Part shown: in pieces, positions 1,701 through 57,671 of the stretch
Layout of the letters: every line of letters begins with the position of its first letter
Position numbering within the stretch: the first letter of the stretch is position 1
NCBI GenBank assembly: GCA_026874595.1
Contig: CM049322.1
Location: 36,761,840 to 36,825,839, forward strand
Source of the DNA: Sipunculus nudus
Taxonomy: Eukaryota; Annelida; Sipuncula; Golfingiida; Sipunculidae
Length of the DNA stretch: 64,000 nt
Direction: 5' to 3'
The notes under the pieces: generated by a model
Told to the model about the DNA's origin: nothing
Databases searched by the model: none
The model's input: the letters and a program-made list of their open reading frames with translations, nothing else
Made by a program: the position numbers and the translations under genes

Positions 1701-2299
1701 CTCTCTTTGTTTGCAATGACATTCAAACAGTCATGTGAATGGCAATGCTTATAGGGATGAGTTTATTTCTATACTCACATTTGTCTAAAAAAATTTGTGG
1801 GTGAACCTATTTCTGTCCTCCTCAAAGTGCAAACTGAACCATCAATTTCAAAATTGTGGGGTTTTTTTCATGTTCCTTCCTGCACAAATTTTGTTTTTGA
1901 GCCAGTTCTCCAATATCTCTGATTTTCAAAAGCCATTTATATTTTTTCTCAATATTAATCCAATCACAGATTTGCAGATGATATTTATTTTTGACCTTCA
2001 CCTTATTTCAAAGTTCTTACACTTTATAGCCGGTCCCCCTTTATCACTGGGTTTCAGGCCTCTGTAGAAGGTTTCCCTGTGATCGCTTGGAGATAACATA
2101 CATCTAGTTTATCTTGGTATGTTACACAAGTGTATACATGTAATGCTCCTTTCAAACAATAACATTTTATAATGGTACTAATGGTTGTTCTTACAATGAT
2201 TCCACAAGGCGTCTGGGTAAAAATTTCAGACTGAAATTCTCCCCAGGACTCACCTGTCATTAATTAACATGATTTCCTACACTGGATTTTCACTTCTAA

Positions 2300-2640
2300 A
2301 TTGTCAGTAAATCAATGGATTTCAGTTGTATGCCAGCTCAACAGACCCTGCGCTTGCTGGGCCTACATCTGGCTCTATTCAACGGCCATTTAATCTCCTT
2401 GAAGAGGCCATAAACTATCAATTTGTTTAAACTGGATCAATAGCCCCACAGACCCACAAGCAACTGGTGGGCCCAGCAAGGTAATGAGGCTGGAATCACG
2501 TCTCGTGAAATTACTCGGTGCCAAGATGGGTCTCCACACCTGTTGTATTCAGCTCCTCCAGTATTGGTAATCCCAAACGATTATGGATTATCACCGGTTA
2601 CTCCCACTAAATGTAGACTGGGATTATGCTACTTAGTCTG
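2300..2640. other. GC-richer unique block, possible conserved noncoding element
   Basis: About 340 bases are distinctly richer in G and C than their surroundings, with no repeat structure and no long frame. Such islands in AT-rich intergenic DNA can be conserved regulatory sequence or an unrecognised exon. I cannot tell which, and I recognise no protein in six frames. Cross-species alignment would decide. Confidence 0.25.
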
Positions 2641-4826
2641 GTATCACTAAAAGATGAAATGATATTACCATTTAATTAACTTGTAATGTCAAACTCAATG
2701 TGAGCCAGAGTGCACTCGATAGAGCATACACCTCCTCCAAGCTCATATTCCAGTCATTACATTATCATCAACTGAAATGACTGTTAATTCTCAAAATATA
2801 ACTGAAAAGGTGAGATATTCACATCCATGTAGCAGCTTCAAAGAAGATTTGCCACCCCAATATTAATATTTTCCTTTACATCAACTGGGTTGATGCCATG
2901 CCATGCAATGCAAGATGGCAAGTACATTTCACTGCTAGTTAATATTGGTTATATCAACCTGGCACATGCCTGTATCTGCCTGCCTGAGTGTGCTGGGGTC
3001 AAGCTCACCATATTCTGGGATGAAATTGACAAGTAATGGAAACGTTTCTTTAATTTCAGTCCAAATCTTCATGGGAAAATTATCACAGTAACATCATCAA
3101 TATATTACATAAAGATCAGTGGTTGTATCAGGCATGACAAAAGCAAAAAAAAAAAAAAAAATTTCATAATATTGGAGGATATTTCTTCAGTTCAGCAACT
3201 GGTCTATCATTGGTTTAAGCAATTGGATAACATAAAAACTCATTTGACAGAGTGGATCATACATTTGATTCTTTTACAATAAAAGTGTTGTTATTCATTG
3301 ATATTACAATAGTTGCATCAGCATATCAGCATATGACTGTTCTGCATATTTGTTAAGAAACCAGTCCATTCATTTAACTTTCTATATTAAAATGAAAATT
3401 ATAAATGCTAAATTTGTACAAATTATTCAATCCACTTGAAGAAAAAGAGAAAATAACAGCCTTAAATGCCTACAAATTATCTGAATTATATACCTTAGCT
3501 AGTGACAGGCTGTTCTAAAAGTGATACACCAAGAGTATAAGTTAAACACATCTTGTGAACAATCCCCATGTGGATACTTGGGATGTCTAGACTTATTTAA
3601 TTATTAGTGGACCAGAGAAACCTTGTCCCTCTAGTATGAGGTAACATGTTTACAAATACACCCAAAAACAGTTTAACCAATTCTACGAAGACGGCATGAG
3701 GATAATGGGGCGCCCTAGTGCCAAAAAAGCCATCTGAACTAAAACCAAGTAAACAGAATTTAAAATATGCATACCTGGCGGGAAATGACCTTACAGACCT
3801 GAAAGGGCAGTGATATTTTCCTTCTAGAAATGTGTGTACCGGTAGTCATGTGACTTTGTGGACACCCATGACAGCTAGGCTCCTGATAACCACACTTTCC
3901 TGTGTTGTGCACAATGCCACACTTCAGAAACAACTTGTTTCACAAATTTATACTTGCCCTAGTACCTATGAATAGGGTGGTCTCCCCACTGACAAAGAAA
4001 TCACCCTGTGTGACAAAGGTGTATATAATCCTTAGAATTAACATATATATCATGGTGCTCAAGAATACCTACAAATTTAATGGAATTTTCCTTGGGTGTC
4101 ACCCTACCCCTTCACAAAATGTCACTAAAACCTTAACAGTACATTTTGCGCATAAAGTTGCTGACAGACACGGAACTGAATCAACTATTGGAAAAAACAT
4201 GATACCTTCCTGGATAAGGTATAATAACTGAGGTCCATACATGTAGCCTGGAATTTAGTGTTAATTCTCTTCTCAAATACTGTGGAGTTTCCAAGTATTT
4301 GGAAACCGATCACTGTCTGTGATGTAATCAATACATATCGCCATGACAATTGCATTTGGCTGTTTCCCCGAGAAACGTATCAGTTAGCTGGCACTGTATC
4401 GTTTCCCTGTCAGGCTTTAATAAAATTGAGCAAGCCTCCTTACATTTTTTTTCCAGTGGAACGCCCATGTGGGCACTGAGCTTAAATGGAGCTTCCCTCA
4501 CAAATGACCTTTCTGACATTGCCTTAATATACACCAAATGATCTATTTCCCATGATGCTTTGTAACATAACCTGTTACCATGATAACCAAGTCCTAATAT
4601 GCCCCTAAAATTGCTCCAAGGCCTTTACTCTAGCGATATTGGTAAACAGGCATTAACTCATGGCTGCAATACCTATAATGACCTTTCACCTTCAGTGGCT
4701 GACTACAAATCATAATCTGTGTAATATTCTATGTATATAAGGCAAAATATATATCCTATGAAAAAGCATTAAAGGGGAATATTCAGATAACTGACATCTA
4801 TTAGCTGAAGAGAGCTATAGTCCTTT
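2641..4826. other. Anonymous AT-rich DNA with an A-tract
   Basis: I see nothing gene-like. A run of 17 A lies at 3145-3161 and could be a retroposon tail, but no tRNA-like head is visible upstream. The short frames between 3902 and 4541 overlap on both strands and have no recognisable content. Confidence 0.5.
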
Positions 4827-29404: not shown

Positions 29405-29660
29405 GGGGGCAACAGGACAACTACCCCCCAGACAGTTAACCCCCGACAATTACCCCCTGAACAATTACCCCCCCCAGACAATTATTCCCCAGGACAATTA
29501 CCCCCCTTGGACAACTACCTCCCAGACAACTATCCCCCAGGCAATTACCCCCCGGTACAACTACCCCCCAGACAACTACCCCACGGACAATTACCCCCTG
29601 GTATAATTACCCCCCCCCCTCAGACAACTACCCCCTGGACAATTACCCCCATGGTATAAA
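29405..29660. repeat. C-rich minisatellite, left arm of an inverted pair
   Basis: About 14 units of 16-19 bases of the form 'gacaattacccccc' or 'gacaactacccccc' make up this tract. The reverse-complement array lies at 30155-30365. The sequence just inside it, 'ccatggtataaatta' then 'tttaaagtacac' (29650-29680), is mirrored at 30129-30165, so the inverted repeat extends beyond the minisatellite itself. Confidence 0.9.
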
Positions 29661-30128: not shown

Positions 30129-30365
30129 ATGTGTACTTTAAAAGTGGTGTTATACCATGGGAGTAGTTGTCCAGGGGGTAGTTGTCCAGGGGGTAATTGT
30201 ACCAGAGGGTAATTGTCTGGGGGTAGTTGTCTTGGGGGTAGTTGTCCTAGGGGGTAATTGTCCTGGGGGGTAATTGTCCAGGGGGGGGGGGGTAATTGTC
30301 TGGGGGGTAATTGTCGAGGGGTAATTCTCCTGGGGGTAATTGTCTGGGGGGTAGTTGTCCTAGAG
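30129..30365. repeat. G-rich minisatellite, right arm of an inverted pair
   Basis: About 13 units of 'ggggggtaattgtcc' or 'gggggtagttgtcc' form the reverse complement of the 29405-29660 array. The plus strand carries many runs of 4-12 G separated by 10-14 bases, suitable for G-quadruplex formation. The arms enclose about 450 AT-rich bases, so the whole forms a large imperfect palindrome. Confidence 0.9.
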
Positions 30366-30410
30366 CCGTTAGGGGTGACATAAAAGTGGACTGAACTGTC
30401 TCACTAGTGA

Positions 30411-30450
30411 AGCTTGTGCGCCACCAACATGGGTTCGAAACCGGGATCGG
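30411..30450 (+). promoter_or_regulatory. tRNA-like B box inside the LTR-like end
   Basis: 'GGTTCGAAACC' at about 30433-30443 fits the Pol III B box. This copy has lost the A-box-like half by the 36-base deletion. The right-hand copy (minus strand, 31530-31595) keeps an A-box-like 'TAGTGAAGCGGTTGG' about 45 bases before its B box. Confidence 0.5.
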
Positions 30451-30488
30451 CCCAATGTTTTCCCCTGAACAATTTGTCTTTGTAAAAT

Positions 30489-30506
30489 TGTGGGCTCGTC
30501 TGGGAG
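30489..30506 (+). promoter_or_regulatory. tRNA-Pro-type primer-binding site
   Basis: These 18 bases match the tRNA-Pro-type retroviral primer-binding site (TGGGGGCTCGTCTGGGAT) at 16 positions, with mismatches at the third and last. It lies 3 bases after the LTR-like end, where reverse transcription would be primed, which supports an LTR-element origin. A relative with 13 matching bases is at 57483-57495. Confidence 0.65.
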
Positions 30507-30655
30507 GCTTAATAGTTTTGAAAATTTATTAGGCCTTGACCTGGACACATAGTTTTATCATACATTAATTGTTTACAAGATTACATACTGTTTACAATAC
30601 ATCATCTAAAGGATTTATCTCAGTGGTTTTTTTTTTATTGTTTTAACATCTTAAC

Positions 30656-31198
30656 TTGGCAGATTTCAAACCTGAGACATTTGTTGACGATCCCGACCCT
30701 GATCAACATGAACAGTTGACAAAGGAACAGTTGTTGCGTTTGGGACAACGCTTAGGGCTAGGTGTGAAAAAAGCTTTGAGAAAGCCTGATATCATTGCTA
30801 AAATCATGCAAGATCTAGTTAGCAAAGGTTTAATTGAAGAGAGTGAAGTTGAAACATTAAAAAATGACAGCCTTGCTATGCAATAAGAATTAAAAAAGTA
30901 AGAAAAGCAACATGAGCTAGCATTAAAACAGTTAGAATTGGAAAAACAAAGAGAAGAGAGGGAATTAGAAAAACAAACAAGAGAGAGGAGAGAAGATTCC
31001 AGTGGACAAAGGTGTGTTTATGTCAGTTTGTGGGACCTGTCTGATTATCCAGTAATTTCAGGGATTCTGCTATTTCTAACTCTATACAATTTAATGCTGC
31101 CTGCCTCAAGTTTACTTTCTGGATTGTTACAAGAGCTTTACATTGGACTGTTATTCTCCGAGAGTATACATTTAAAGAATTTGTCGCTGTGGCAGTGA
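30656..31198 (+). pseudogene. Gag-like N-terminal fragment, broken
   Basis: One frame runs through this interval. It begins with a TTG where an ATG would be expected, before 'ADFKPETFVDDPDPDQHEQL'. The first 76 residues are acidic then basic, with 'LTKEQLLRLGQRLGLGVKKA', resembling the short helical SAP-like start of invertebrate LTR-element gag proteins. Two in-frame stops follow (30884 and 30899 codons), then a Glu/Lys/Arg-rich coiled coil ('LALKQLELEKQREERELEKQ', about residues 85-115). The tail to 31198 is hydrophobic and unlike gag, so an internal deletion probably joined unrelated sequence. Capsid, nucleocapsid and pol are absent. It is non-functional, and family assignment is by resemblance only. 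Confidence 0.6.
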
Positions 31199-31989
31199 TG
31201 GTATCCAGGTACTTTGTTTATTAGGCTGTGTGATTATATTGATTTGATGTTATACTGATATTGTACAGTGTAATTTTATTGATTTAGTGTACTGTAATGT
31301 TAGGGTTGTTTTAAGAATAAATTATGGTAATTTATTAACAAAAAACCACTGACTTCTTTATTCATTCCCTTAGACATTTCACGCTGCCTAGTGTTACAGA
31401 ATCTGATTTTTTTTCTCTATTGCCAAATTTGTGTTTGTCACGCATACGTTATCCATTTATATTAGGTTCCGTAGCATAAAACTGTTTGTTACCAAGACAA
31501 ATTGTTCAGGGGAAAACATTGGGCCGATCCTGGTTTTGAACCCATGTTGGTGGCGCACAAGTCCGGCGTACCAACCGCTTCACTAGCAAAGCAAGCTTCA
31601 CTAGCGAGACAGTTCGGTCCGCTTTTATGTCACCCCTAAACATAATGTCTCATGAATATTCAAAAAAGGTCAAATAATTAAAGCCCTGAAGACATTAGGC
31701 AAGGCAGTCAAAGATTTGGCAAGAAGGTTCTGGTAGGTTGTTCTAGAGCCATATAAAGTACCATTTGGCAAAATGAGCTCCATTTAATTTTGATTTTATG
31801 TTACCATTTATCTCAGATAATAAGGACACAGTTGCTCGTCTTTTAGCTAACCTAATTTCTCTAATTGGCTTTAAATAACAACCATGCTTCTATTATTACT
31901 ATTATTTAGTGGACTGGATTTGAAACACATTTTAACCCAAAACGATGTGGTAAAAAGACCAACACTGAAACATTTTTTTTTGTGCATGC

Positions 31990-34208: not shown

Positions 34209-34258
<50 letters not shown>
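34209..34258. repeat. (TA)25 microsatellite at the left edge of a foldback element
   Basis: A perfect TA run of about 25 units directly abuts the TCACAG terminus of the 34259-36148 element. A matching TA tract lies at the other edge (36149-36199). Either the element targets TA repeats or the tracts expanded after insertion. Confidence 0.95.
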
Positions 34259-34262
<4 letters not shown>

Positions 34263-36148
34263 AGGCGAAATTAGAATCCAGGCGGATTTAAAATCCGCCT
34301 TGGTGAGATTGAAATTTTGATTTCGCCTAGGCTGATTTTAAATCTGCCTAGGCGAGATTGAAATTCTGATTTTATATGATTATATGTAGGATTTCAATCT
34401 CGCCTAGGCTGATTTTAAATCTGCCTAGGCGAGATTGAAATTCTGATTTTGCCTAGGCCAGATTAAAATCCTAGCTTTTAATCTGCGTCATTCAATTCTT
34501 TGGTTTAATCATGCTGATTGTTTCATAATAATTGCAGTTTATTCTCACATTTGGCGTGGAGAGATTTATCTGTTGATAATTGTCTATCTGAACATCTTAA
34601 TGAATAGGACCATTGTAGGAATTTAAGATCTGCCCTGGCCAACAAGATGGAAATTTTGATTTTGCTTTGTTTCAAGTGTAAGTTTTACAGAAACTCTGGA
34701 TTTTGAAAGATCAGTTTATTAAGAACACTATATCTTAATGAACATAAAAAATAAATGGATTTTTATAATCACTGATGCTAAAGAATGCTTTACAGAAGTG
34801 ATGAAGTTTTTTCTGACAGGTGGGTGAAATTTAAAAAAAAAACACAGGTATATTTTCAGTCTGATTTTTTCAGGTTTCAGCATTTATTTTTTGCCTTGGC
34901 AAATAACATTAAATTTTGGCTTTTTATTAGCTGAAAGGGGCAAGGAAGATACAGGTATTTGAATATTTTAGTTATTTATATTGTTTATTATAAATGGTGC
35001 ATACTGCATATTTTAGACTGATTACCATGTAGTTATGGAATTGCTAAATATTAAATATAATAAAAGAGTATCTTTTTATACATGTGTTCTTGGTAGTTAC
35101 TCTCAGAATATACACTTCTAGTCTGTTTAATTCCCTTATTTATTTATACAATAATATCTGTAATTTTTTTGCAGCTACTCAATGTTCTGAGGTTCAATGT
35201 TCTTGTGTCCACTTAAAAGAAAAAGGGAAAAAATATATCTTAACAATAAGGTTGAGATATTCTTAAGTAGACTGGTGTATTTCAGGATATTTTAAAATAA
35301 ACTGTTTCTCTTGGTAACATCTAAACTAAAATATTCTCATGTAAACCAGTGTATTTCAGTTTATCCCTAAATGAACTGGTTGACTTCTGGATATCCCAAT
35401 GTGAACAAGTGTACATTGGAATATTCCAATCTCAGTAGTGACTATCCCCATCTCAACCGTTAAGATGGGGATTCATATCTCAAATAGTTGAGTTTCGAAC
35501 TCAACTGGATTCCCATCTACACTGTGACATATATATATATTTTTATCAACATTTTGTGTGAAAATGTGCTGTAGAACACGGTGGAAAAAAATAAAATATT
35601 AGGTAGACTACCAGTTTTGCAGATGTGTACATTAACATATTTCGTGTTGTTTTGTCAGTCTGCTAAAATTAAATTGCTATTAAATATGTTAAAAATAAAA
35701 GGACAACCCCAGTAAAATCATGTGTAATAAATCCGAATTTATTTTAAGCTCAAGTAACTTGCTTTAGTCACTAATTTTATAATGTTATCATTAAATATTA
35801 AGATTATACTTTTGAAGATATACATTATAATGAAATAATCAGCATGATTCAACCAAATAATTGAATCAAGCAGATTAATAGCTAGGATTTTAATATAGCC
35901 TAGGCGAAATCAAAATTTCAGTCTCGCCTAGGCAGATTTTAAATCCGCCTAGGCGAGATTGAAATCCTACATATGATCATAACAGGATTTTATTCTCGCC
36001 TAGGCGGATTCAAAATTTCAATCTCGCCTAGGCAGATTTTAAATCCGCCTAGGCGAGATAGAAATTTTAATCTCGCCTAGGCGAAATCAAAATTTCAATC
36101 TCGCCTAGGCGGATTTTAAATCCACCTGGATTCTAATTTCGCCTGTGA
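34259..36148. mobile_element. 1.9-kb foldback element A with modular hairpin arms
   Basis: The left arm (34259 to about 34540) and right arm (about 35823-36148) are reverse complements over some 280-325 bases, bounded by TCACAG and CTGTGA. Each arm is built from short modules such as 'gcctaggcgagattgaaatt' and 'ggcggatttaaaatccgcc', the second being itself a palindrome, so arms fold locally as well as with each other. The arms differ in module number, consistent with slippage or conversion. The ~1.3-kb interior has no transposase-like frame and includes a further related terminus at 35527. It is non-autonomous and of no class I recognise. Confidence 0.85.
35270..35527. mobile_element. Foldback terminus C (half element) within element A
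   Basis: Read inward from 35527 on the minus strand, the sequence begins TCACAG and has AATCCAG at positions 17-23. A palindrome then spans positions 23-41 (TTGAGTT/AACTCAA) and a partner for positions 10-16 lies at 59-65. It abuts a short TA tract (35528-35541). This is the architecture of elements A and B with different stem sequences. The opposite terminus was not found. Sequence further left (35270-35430) holds more short inverted words such as 'accagtgtatttca' and 'gtgtacattggaatattcca'. Confidence 0.65.
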
Positions 36149-36154
36149 CATATA

Positions 36155-36199
<45 letters not shown>
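36149..36199. repeat. TA microsatellite at the right edge of element A
   Basis: 'catatatctata' followed by about 18 TA units immediately follows the CTGTGA terminus, mirroring 34209-34258. Confidence 0.95.
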
Positions 36200-55175: not shown

Positions 55176-55975
55176 ATATTAGAGTTGTGAATTGTTTGAA
55201 ATTGAAAATTTTTTATTTATTTCTGAAAAATATTAAGATATAAAAACAGATATACATGCAATATCAATCACTGACAAATTATTTAAAGGAACCTGTTTAG
55301 AATATTCAGGAATTTTAATCATTTTAATTACCAAACATATTCTTTCCTAGTTACCCTGTACCTGAGTGGGAATTTATTTATTCAAACTGGAGTTAAACTG
55401 AGTAGACAAAAAATTTTACAATTTAATTTGAATTTGATTTGGCTAGCTTGGATTGACAGTTGTTATACAGTTAATTATGTGGAAATTCTTAATCTTTAAA
55501 TGTGAAATATAGTTATTCTTATAAAATCATATCTTTTTAGGAATATCTGGCCAAGGTTTAAAAGGACAATGCTCTGATGAAATTAATAACATTAAGGGTA
55601 TTTATTGTCCTGATTTATACATTGCCTTCCAGCAGACATGATGAATATTTTTTTTTTTTAATCTGTTTCAATGGCTAATTCAAGTTTAAAAAAAAATCTA
55701 TACTTTTTCATCCAAGAGTCCCCAGAACATTTTATTTTCAAAGCAACATGATTCTGAAATTCTTCTTATCAGTGCATTTTATTCATATTTGCTTTACCAT
55801 TCTTCAAAAAGTTCACTACAATTCATAAATCAATATATAAATTACAGCTTTAACAAACAATACATTAATGAAATAATACATTGTGATATCAAATAAGAAT
55901 TCAATGATGCCCCCGGTTTTTTCATTGATAAATATAGGTTATCCAAGTGCATCTCCAGCCCAACATTCCATGATA
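55176..55975. other. Anonymous AT-rich DNA
   Basis: I see nothing identifiable apart from the weak duplication echo near 55387. Confidence 0.5.
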
Positions 55976-55981
55976 TATATG

Positions 55982-56142
55982 TCACAGACCAGATCTAAAT
56001 CCAGTCAAGTTTACAACTGGCTTAGGCCAGATCTCGATTAGGATCTGGTCTGGTCCAGTTTAGAATTGGCCTAGACCAGATCCCAATCCAGATCTGGCCT
56101 AGGCCAGTTCTAAACTGGACTGGATTTAGATCTGGCCTGTGA
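55982..56142. mobile_element. 161-bp foldback element B
   Basis: The whole element is one imperfect palindrome, from TCACAG at 55982 to CTGTGA at 56142, flanked by 'tatatatg' and 'catatatata'. Modules such as 'ggcctaggccagatct' and 'aatccag' alternate with local palindromes. Read from the right end inward, the terminus has TCACAG at 1-6, AATCCAG at 17-23, a stem pairing 23-31 with 33-41 and another pairing 8-14 with 61-67. These are the same coordinates as element A, but the stem sequences differ. It has no coding capacity. Confidence 0.85.
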
Positions 56143-57324
56143 CATATATATATATATATAGTCTCTTAAAGCACCTAAAAAGGCAGCTATAATGTGAATT
56201 GATCATCATTGGTCAGAAACCACTATGAGCTGTTCATAATGTATTATTGACAATATTCATAGCTGGTATATTGGCAACAGGCAGGCAAACAAAGTATATG
56301 ACCTATATCAGGTTTAAAAATAAATAATATGAGTGTGTTTATATTTCTGTGCACAGGGAAGAACAAACTGCAATGTGAGCAATTATTTCTCTGATCTGTA
56401 ATATGTGTTATTAACCCTTGTATTAAGATTTTTGTTGCACAATTAATATGTGTCACCAACAGATGACGCTAGTTGATGACAAATCAATCCGGCTGTTAAT
56501 CTTGATCCATGACCATTTAAGAATAAAACGGCACAAACACTTGCACCGATAAAGAAATCATTCAACAGAGAGTCTCAAGTACCCTGAAGAAGGACTCTGC
56601 AGTCAGTCTCAGCTACCCTGAAGAAGCAGCAAAGAGGTGAAAGCCAAGATCCCAATAACGTCTGCCTTTTATGCCTTTGCTGCTTATTTCTAGAAGAATC
56701 ATAAAATTCCTTCAAAATTGTTCAGACAATATTGTGCTTAAAAATGACAGGATTATATCTGGCTCATCTGGAAAATCTGGAGTCAAGCAGAACGTGTCTT
56801 CAGATCTTGTCACAAACAATAGACCTTTCCCATGAGCATGCGTGCTGCCCATGACAGTTGTCTGCGGGTTTAGGGTCCAATCAACCAGTATCTTAACCAG
56901 TGACTTAAATACAACTTAAGTAAAAACTAGAAACTCTGGAAGGAACCTAAAAAGTAAGGATATGGTATGTTTGTTTATTACTATGAATCATTTGAGATAT
57001 CACAAAATACATTCAGTTTGTCAAAATAAGAGACCTAAACATTCAATGGTGAGTGTGTGGGTGACTCTTTTAAAAAGGGGAATCCATTCAAAAAATTAAA
57101 AAGACACACACAAAATATCATGGTTTTATTGTTGCAACTACATGCTTCAATTATTTAAAATTTTTACAAGATGTGCAAACATGTTTGAATGAATGGTTAA
57201 CATAAACATTACATACCCGCAGGTTCTGATATAATGATAAGAAATACTGATTGTCTAACATATGTATCAGTCCTTAAGGTACTGTCCATGATAAGAAGCC
57301 TGATATATGGATGGAGACACATAT
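56143..57324. other. Anonymous DNA with a small duplication
   Basis: Two blocks of about 45 bases with 'taccctgaagaag' (near 56579 and 56616) form a short tandem duplication, in an otherwise featureless stretch. The frame at 57234-57443 runs into the LTR-like element and is not a gene. Confidence 0.45.
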
Positions 57325-57671
57325 TGTTACAGGGTGACATAAAAGCAGACCGAACTGTCTCACTAGTAAAGCTTGCTTTTCTAGTGAAGCAGTTGGTTCA
57401 CTGGACTTGTGCGCCACCGACCTGGGTTCGACTCCCAGATTGACCCAGGATTCCCCCTCATTTATTTGTCTTCAGAACAAAATGGGGGCTCGTCTAACGT
57501 GACAATAAACTTTGTGTGGCCCAGGGAATAAGCTCACCAAAGTGTGACTCCTGGGATAATTAGTCTTGTTATGATAGCAGAACGCTCTTAAAAGGGGGTG
57601 TGTGACATAAAAGTGGACCAAACTGTCTCGCTAGTGAAGCTTGCTTTGCTAGCGAAGCTGTCTTCGTAACA
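57325..57671 (+). mobile_element. Compact LTR-like element, 347 bp, with 4-bp flanking repeat
   Basis: The unit begins TGTTAC and ends GTAACA, the short inverted termini typical of LTRs, and is flanked by ATAT on both sides (57321-57324 and 57672-57675). The flank is weak evidence because the right side is a TA run. The first 150 bases match the LTR-like ends of the 30371-31637 element. A tRNA-Pro-type primer-binding-site core lies at 57483-57495. From about 57601 the start of the same sequence ('gtgacataaaagtggacc') returns as a direct repeat of about 70 bases. The whole therefore resembles a tiny TRIM-like element: LTR, primer site, short insert, partial LTR. There are no coding genes. Confidence 0.7.
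57381..57436 (+). promoter_or_regulatory. tRNA-like Pol III promoter module in the LTR-like unit
   Basis: An A-box-like 'TAGTGAAGCAGTTGG' (about 57382-57396) is followed 40-45 bases later by a B box 'GGTTCGACTCC' (about 57425-57435) inside a T-arm-like 'ctgggttcgactcccag'. Spacing and order match a type-2 internal Pol III promoter. The same module is present in the 31530-31595 copy. Confidence 0.6.

Follow-up and report, generated by a model that had tools for sequence, protein, structure and literature searches.

Covarying stems as a trait of subfamily founders in a dispersed Foldback-like family of Sipunculus nudus

The locus described here raises the question of what keeps the stems paired in a set of terminal sequences whose stem bases differ from one another. 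The window, by which we mean the whole 64,000-nucleotide stretch of DNA that was analysed, comes from a host genome of 1.43 Gb in 153 contigs, and an earlier note had aligned three termini within it, at 34259 on the plus strand and at 56142 and 35527 on the minus strand, which belong to the elements referred to here as A, B and C, respectively. These coordinates match, and TCACAG at positions 1–6, AATCCAG at 17–23, the words GAGAT, CAGAT and GAGAT at 47–51, both stems (stem 1 pairing 8–16 with 59–67 and stem 2 pairing 23–31 with 33–41) and all five pairs that had been offered as examples were found as described. The three termini belong to one family with one architecture in exact register, and complementarity is held between its subfamilies. 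The best explanation for the observations as a whole, to which we assign a probability of about 0.58, is that A, B and C are subfamilies of a single non-coding, non-autonomous Foldback-like DNA transposon family, most likely of the cut-and-paste kind.

Two further ends of the family are present in the window, at 36148 on the minus strand and at 55982 on the plus strand, and the five ends are both of those of A, both of those of B and one of C (Table 1); a second end of C was not recognised in the window. The sequence TCACAG-N10-AATCCAG occurs exactly at five places in the window, every one of them an element end, and with up to two mismatches it gives seven matches against 1.9 expected. The two arms of A are identical at 253 of 278 aligned bases, the right arm having 51 extra bases relative to the left in blocks of 28 and 23, and no stop-to-stop open reading frame of 85 or more amino acids was found inside A. 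Among the traits of Foldback-like elements, long terminal inverted repeats are present in A, with B being foldback throughout, and internally repetitive arms are present as well. Dispersed genome copies, a further such trait, are also found: the first look at the genome gave 179 candidates with the B query and 873 with the A query, of which 40 each were scored, and the copy counts are lower bounds. Other repeats also occur in the window. Inverted arms of tandem units of about 15 bp (GGACAATTACCCCCC) at 29416–29660 and 30159–30360 resemble another foldback element, and another family of repeats, whose ends are GTGACATAAAAG and which is rich in short palindromes, is found at 30375–31640, 57334–57393 and 57602–57661.

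Table 1. Positions of elements, arms and flanking repeats in the window.
Feature	Position	Strand	Description
Element A	34259..36148		1890 bp, terminal inverted repeats of ~0.3 kb, without long open frame
Element A, left arm	34259..34532	+	TCACAG, half module, then palindromes P1 (13 bp) and P2 (20 bp) with GCCTAGGC linkers
Element A, right arm	35824..36148	-	array of the same kind as the left arm
Element B	55982..56142		161-bp foldback, mirror centre 81.0 on P1 module, 70/80 arm positions complementary
C-type end	35457..35527	-	single end nested within A
(TA)n left of A	34209..34258		
(TA)n right of A	36149..36198		
(TA)n beside C end	35528..35540		
(TA)n left of B	55973..55981		
(TA)n right of B	56143..56160		

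The arms are arrays, which run inward from TCACAG through a half module to P1, an 8-bp linker, the quasi-palindrome P2, a second linker and P1 again, and so onward with a period of 49 bp. The linker, which is GCCTAGGC or a near variant in A and B, starts at 39, 67 and 88 in both the left arm of A and in B, and in the right arm of A an extra unit is inserted after 67. One 12-base module is seen in three versions, at 9–20, at 47–58 and as the reverse complement of 55–66, so that the module includes the conserved GAGAT/CAGAT and AATC words and stem 1 pairs two of its three copies. GAGAT had been considered as an independent protein site and was dropped, because 47–58 is another version of the module at 9–20.

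Between A, B and C the module sequences differ and palindromy is retained. The terminal and inner copies of P1 within the same arm are alike at 11 and 11 of 13 bases in the left arm of A, 12 and 12 in its right arm, 12 in the right arm of B and 10 in its left arm, whereas P1 copies at the same place in different elements are alike at 6–7 of 13 (A and B), 7 of 13 (A and C) and 10 of 13 (B and C), the last value meaning that the contrast within and between elements is clear for comparisons with A alone. As B is a foldback, its P2 copies do not provide an independent test. Comparison of the blocks, two per arm of A, gives four informative sites (columns 23–63) that sort the copies by arm and two (columns 2–3) that sort them by place. 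Change is thus shared by module copies that have no need to pair with one another, which is what concerted change in the array predicts, and our best reading is that the modules are homogenised within source elements. The pair 11–64 is A-T in A and G-C in B, in C and in the A-like end of L120, and the direct copy at 49 in A is still G, so that exchange between inverted copies, or pairing, fits this change better than general homogenisation. The central base of the P1 core also differs between the two arms of A; its reading as an inversion of the spacer is weakened, since a plain T/A substitution explains it equally.

At the five window ends taken together, pairs are formed in 81 of 90 stem cells, which was reached in none of 500 shuffles, and the same is true of the covariation score (0/500); pairs with two-sided change were as numerous in 22 of the 500 shuffles, and pair types in 196 of the 500. 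With the partners slid by -1, 64% still pair. The RNAalifold energy of -29.9 was reached in none of 300 column shuffles. When A, B and C are compared with one another, both bases have changed and a standard pair is retained in 17 of the 30 pairs that differ, whereas comparison of each element's own two ends, in A and in B, gives five differing stem pairs, none of them compensated; the one-sided Fisher p for 17/30 versus 0/5 is 0.026, for pairs that are not independent of one another. The earlier note had described substitution as confined to the stems, which is not the case, as in the comparisons between A, B and C unpaired columns differ at 8, 12 and 12 of 35 and paired columns at 17, 20 and 17 of 36. 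Its statement that pairing is kept holds between subfamilies and fails within the right end of B (T.C at 24–40 and A.G at 16–59) and in C (C.A at 31–33), and also in the two ends that it had omitted, 36148 on the minus strand and 55982 on the plus strand, which bring in further uncompensated changes.

The genome copies give a different picture of the stems from that given by A, B and C. B-type rows were ungapped, with at least 18 of 24 and at least 56 of 71 matches and with ends containing indels left out; one row, L106 (967), is out of alignment beyond base 52 and contributes broken pairs. The B-type set comprises 36 distinct ends, in which 80 stem pairs depart from the majority of that type, 74 through one-sided changes (56 unpaired, 13 to G.T and 5 to Watson-Crick pairs) and 6 through two-sided changes, a single one of which retains a Watson-Crick pair. 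The A-type count, which leaves out L163 (a shifted row) and the divergent L120 and L170, comprises 14 distinct ends (19 ends) with 15 differing stem pairs, every one of them one-sided (7 unpaired, 4 to G.T and 4 to Watson-Crick pairs). Taken together, the 50 distinct ends contain 95 changed stem pairs, one of which is compensated. Paired columns vary at 86 of 1296 positions and unpaired columns at 95 of 1260 in the B-type ends, with 15 of 504 and 10 of 490, respectively, in the A-type ends. The stems are not maintained among A- and B-type copies, in which paired and unpaired columns vary alike.

Pairing is therefore not kept among copies, and stem differences without compensation, which the earlier note itself had named as evidence against its reading, are what these copies contain. 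Its suggestion that both arms of a hairpin are routinely rewritten together likewise finds no support in them. Compensation is seen among A, B and C and not among copies, and is hence a property of the differences between subfamilies. Neutral decay after insertion accounts for the copies and is silent on what kept the source elements palindromic; because copies decay once inserted, the result is compatible with recognition of a folded end, or with rare rewriting, in a few active source elements. Recent activity is indicated by six A-type ends that lie in different flanking sequence and share all 71 bases. A 200-kb sample of 20 stretches, 4 adjoining the window and 16 on other contigs, contained one further accepted end, at L131:1373, with poor stems (5/9 and 4/9 pairs).

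The ends read TG|TCACAG. Flanks were analysed in a hand list of 56 ends, 55 of them with full flanks, from which L097, L098, L104, L108 and L109, having strongly deviating first bases, are absent. The six bases before TCACAG have the majority TATATG, each at 78% or more of the 55 ends. At least six alternating pyrimidine-purine bases precede 43 of the 55 ends as compared with 6% of 4688 control TG sites, and at least ten precede 26 of the 55 as compared with 0.3% of the control sites. The family inserts into alternating pyrimidine-purine DNA, and the expectation that copies would lie next to TA repeats stands in part, in that (TA)n flanks are found and (TG)n and (CA)n flanks occur too. If TG is taken as outermost, the flanks of B, of L129 and of the A-type copy at C14:45808455-45810492 (L153 and L171) are consistent with duplication of TA, and a four-base duplication fits neither L153/L171 nor L129. 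Six end pairs were examined beside L153/L171, among which L130 and L121 have imperfect TA duplications and A and L106 are without the left TG. The target duplication is probably the two bases TA. At positions 317 and 328 of L120, A-like and B-type ends stand back to back and share CATATATATG, as if one target had been used twice.

Relatives of the family were sought more widely. Viral scans returned 8, 71, 3 and 0 stretches, and by eye no match among all 82 extends into the array; the prokaryote scan returned one stretch, unlike the array, and a single weak match, of 66 bases, linked A to a Staphylococcus phage, with no match of B in phages and plasmids. The sequence TGTGATATATATGTCACA is present in 18 of the 71 viral stretches (L026, L043, L067, L069 and others), four of which have two copies, and is perhaps a phage regulatory site unrelated to the A/B/C family. 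In the window, an Rfam scan gave no match at gathering scores and a tRNA scan was empty, ten frames had Pfam matches below the cut-off only, and one frame compared with solved structures gave nothing convincing. L129 contains a B-type element of 3856 bp, with ends at 1519 and 5374, that holds open frames. Within it, a stretch at about 1985–3590 has its own inverted ends (ACTTAAGCCACGGGCAAGC...), and since the frames at 2120–3452 lie inside these, it was treated as a nested element. No Pfam match above the cut-off was obtained for L129 (seven frames and four coding pieces, frame 3837–4187 being left out).

By analogy with Galileo (see below), the modules are most likely transposase-binding sites. 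No transposase or autonomous copy of the family was found, and for this reason we infer their role as repeated binding sites of a dimeric transposase that would be encoded elsewhere. In new source elements the module sequences would be replaced across the array by conversion, unequal exchange or hairpin template switching; such replacement would keep each module palindromic, giving covarying stems between subfamilies, and the inserted copies would then decay neutrally.

Hairpin template switching could also be the whole explanation, rewriting both arms at once at the birth of a subfamily and producing short elements like B by snapback at a module palindrome, although we consider this unlikely. 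B is mirrored about 81.0, the centre of P1 at 75–87 in the A register, and the left arm of A is mirrored about the same point over 55–80 (22/26) and not further out (16/54). This suggests that B was born by hairpin snapback of one end at the P1 palindrome, which would yield B in a single step; the reading rests on one element, the single short B-like element seen. Foldback inversions by way of single-stranded hairpins are described in yeast (PMC7467729), and template switching is described as homogenising the arms of inverted repeats and can give two-sided changes (PMC8604942, PMC8794818). The paired change at 11–64, where the direct copy is unchanged, also speaks for it. Against it stand the single compensated pair of 95 among copies, the absence of compensation (0/5) between the ends of A and of B, and the equal fit of spacer inversion and T/A substitution to the central base of P1.

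It is less probable again that a folded single-strand end, of DNA or RNA, is recognised in active elements and that stems 1 and 2 stay paired through selection acting on source elements. The 17 two-sided changes among 30 and the folding z of the five ends taken singly (-3.7 to -6.2) are in its favour, yet double-stranded palindromic binding sites predict the same subfamily pattern, the stems are no less variable than the unpaired columns among copies, stem 1 competes with an alternative pairing of 47–56 to 57–66, and the right end of B folds unlike A. The imperfect pairs, read inward, are G.T over A.C in A and B (6:0, 6:0, 5:1 and 4:0), which is also in its favour, and the opposite in C (1:3). 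A broader proposal, that the ends are self-templating, with folded single strands whose copying across the hairpin rewrites inverted modules at the birth of a source element, snapback yielding B-like elements and the module lattice setting a ladder of lengths, appears to us somewhat more doubtful still. Chance sharing of words between unrelated palindromes, for which the AT-rich window offers many candidates (193 inverted-repeat pairs), is refuted by the conserved words, the common register and the dispersed genome copies, and carries next to no weight.

The preferred reading thus remains that of subfamilies of one transposon family, dispersed and recently active, in which the covarying stems are a trait of the subfamily founders. 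Stems can covary between transposon subfamilies while showing no maintenance among copies, which calls for caution when structure is inferred from small numbers of diverged repeats. Should the snapback reading be true, it would provide a testable origin for foldback MITEs.

Searches of open-licence papers showed no description of the A/B/C family, and it may be catalogued in Repbase or Dfam. TA-duplicating MITEs of the Tc1/mariner type are short, non-coding elements with inverted repeats and a TA target, and the A/B/C family is like them in its short, non-coding members with inverted repeats and probably in its TA target, and differs in that its arms are arrays of palindromes. Target duplications in the P superfamily are longer than TA. 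Galileo, a Foldback-like member of that superfamily and the closest to the A/B/C family among the elements compared, is described as having long, internally repetitive inverted repeats (PMC3688188, PMC3573991), with between-species conservation restricted to about 40 bp at the end and THAP sites for its transposase in the arm repeats (PMC3688188). Binding of this transposase to arms of other subfamilies from the same species is reported as weaker or absent, and to arms of other species as slight for one and significant for another (PMC3688188). The A/B/C family resembles Galileo in its long repetitive inverted repeats and in conservation limited to the ends, and differs in its 49-bp palindromic unit, its probable TA duplication and the fact that no transposase was found. 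Identity with the Helentron/HINE elements of bivalves, which are described as combining two unlike modules and subterminal inverted repeats with a palindrome that is confined to the 3' end (PMC7492417), was rejected, as the ends of the A/B/C family are symmetric inverted repeats. The GC42 clusters of yeast mitochondria are likewise short mobile palindromes, and their stems are reported to vary less than their loops (PMC4478555), whereas stems and unpaired columns of the A/B/C family vary alike. Tetris/DAIBAM of Drosophila virilis is described as a non-coding foldback element with tandem repeats in its arms that change in copy number, and two of its three complete elements show signs of homogenisation within the element (PMC4079207); it resembles the A/B/C family in being a non-coding foldback with repeated arms and signs of homogenisation, and differs in its 220-bp repeats and 8–10-bp duplications (PMC4079207).
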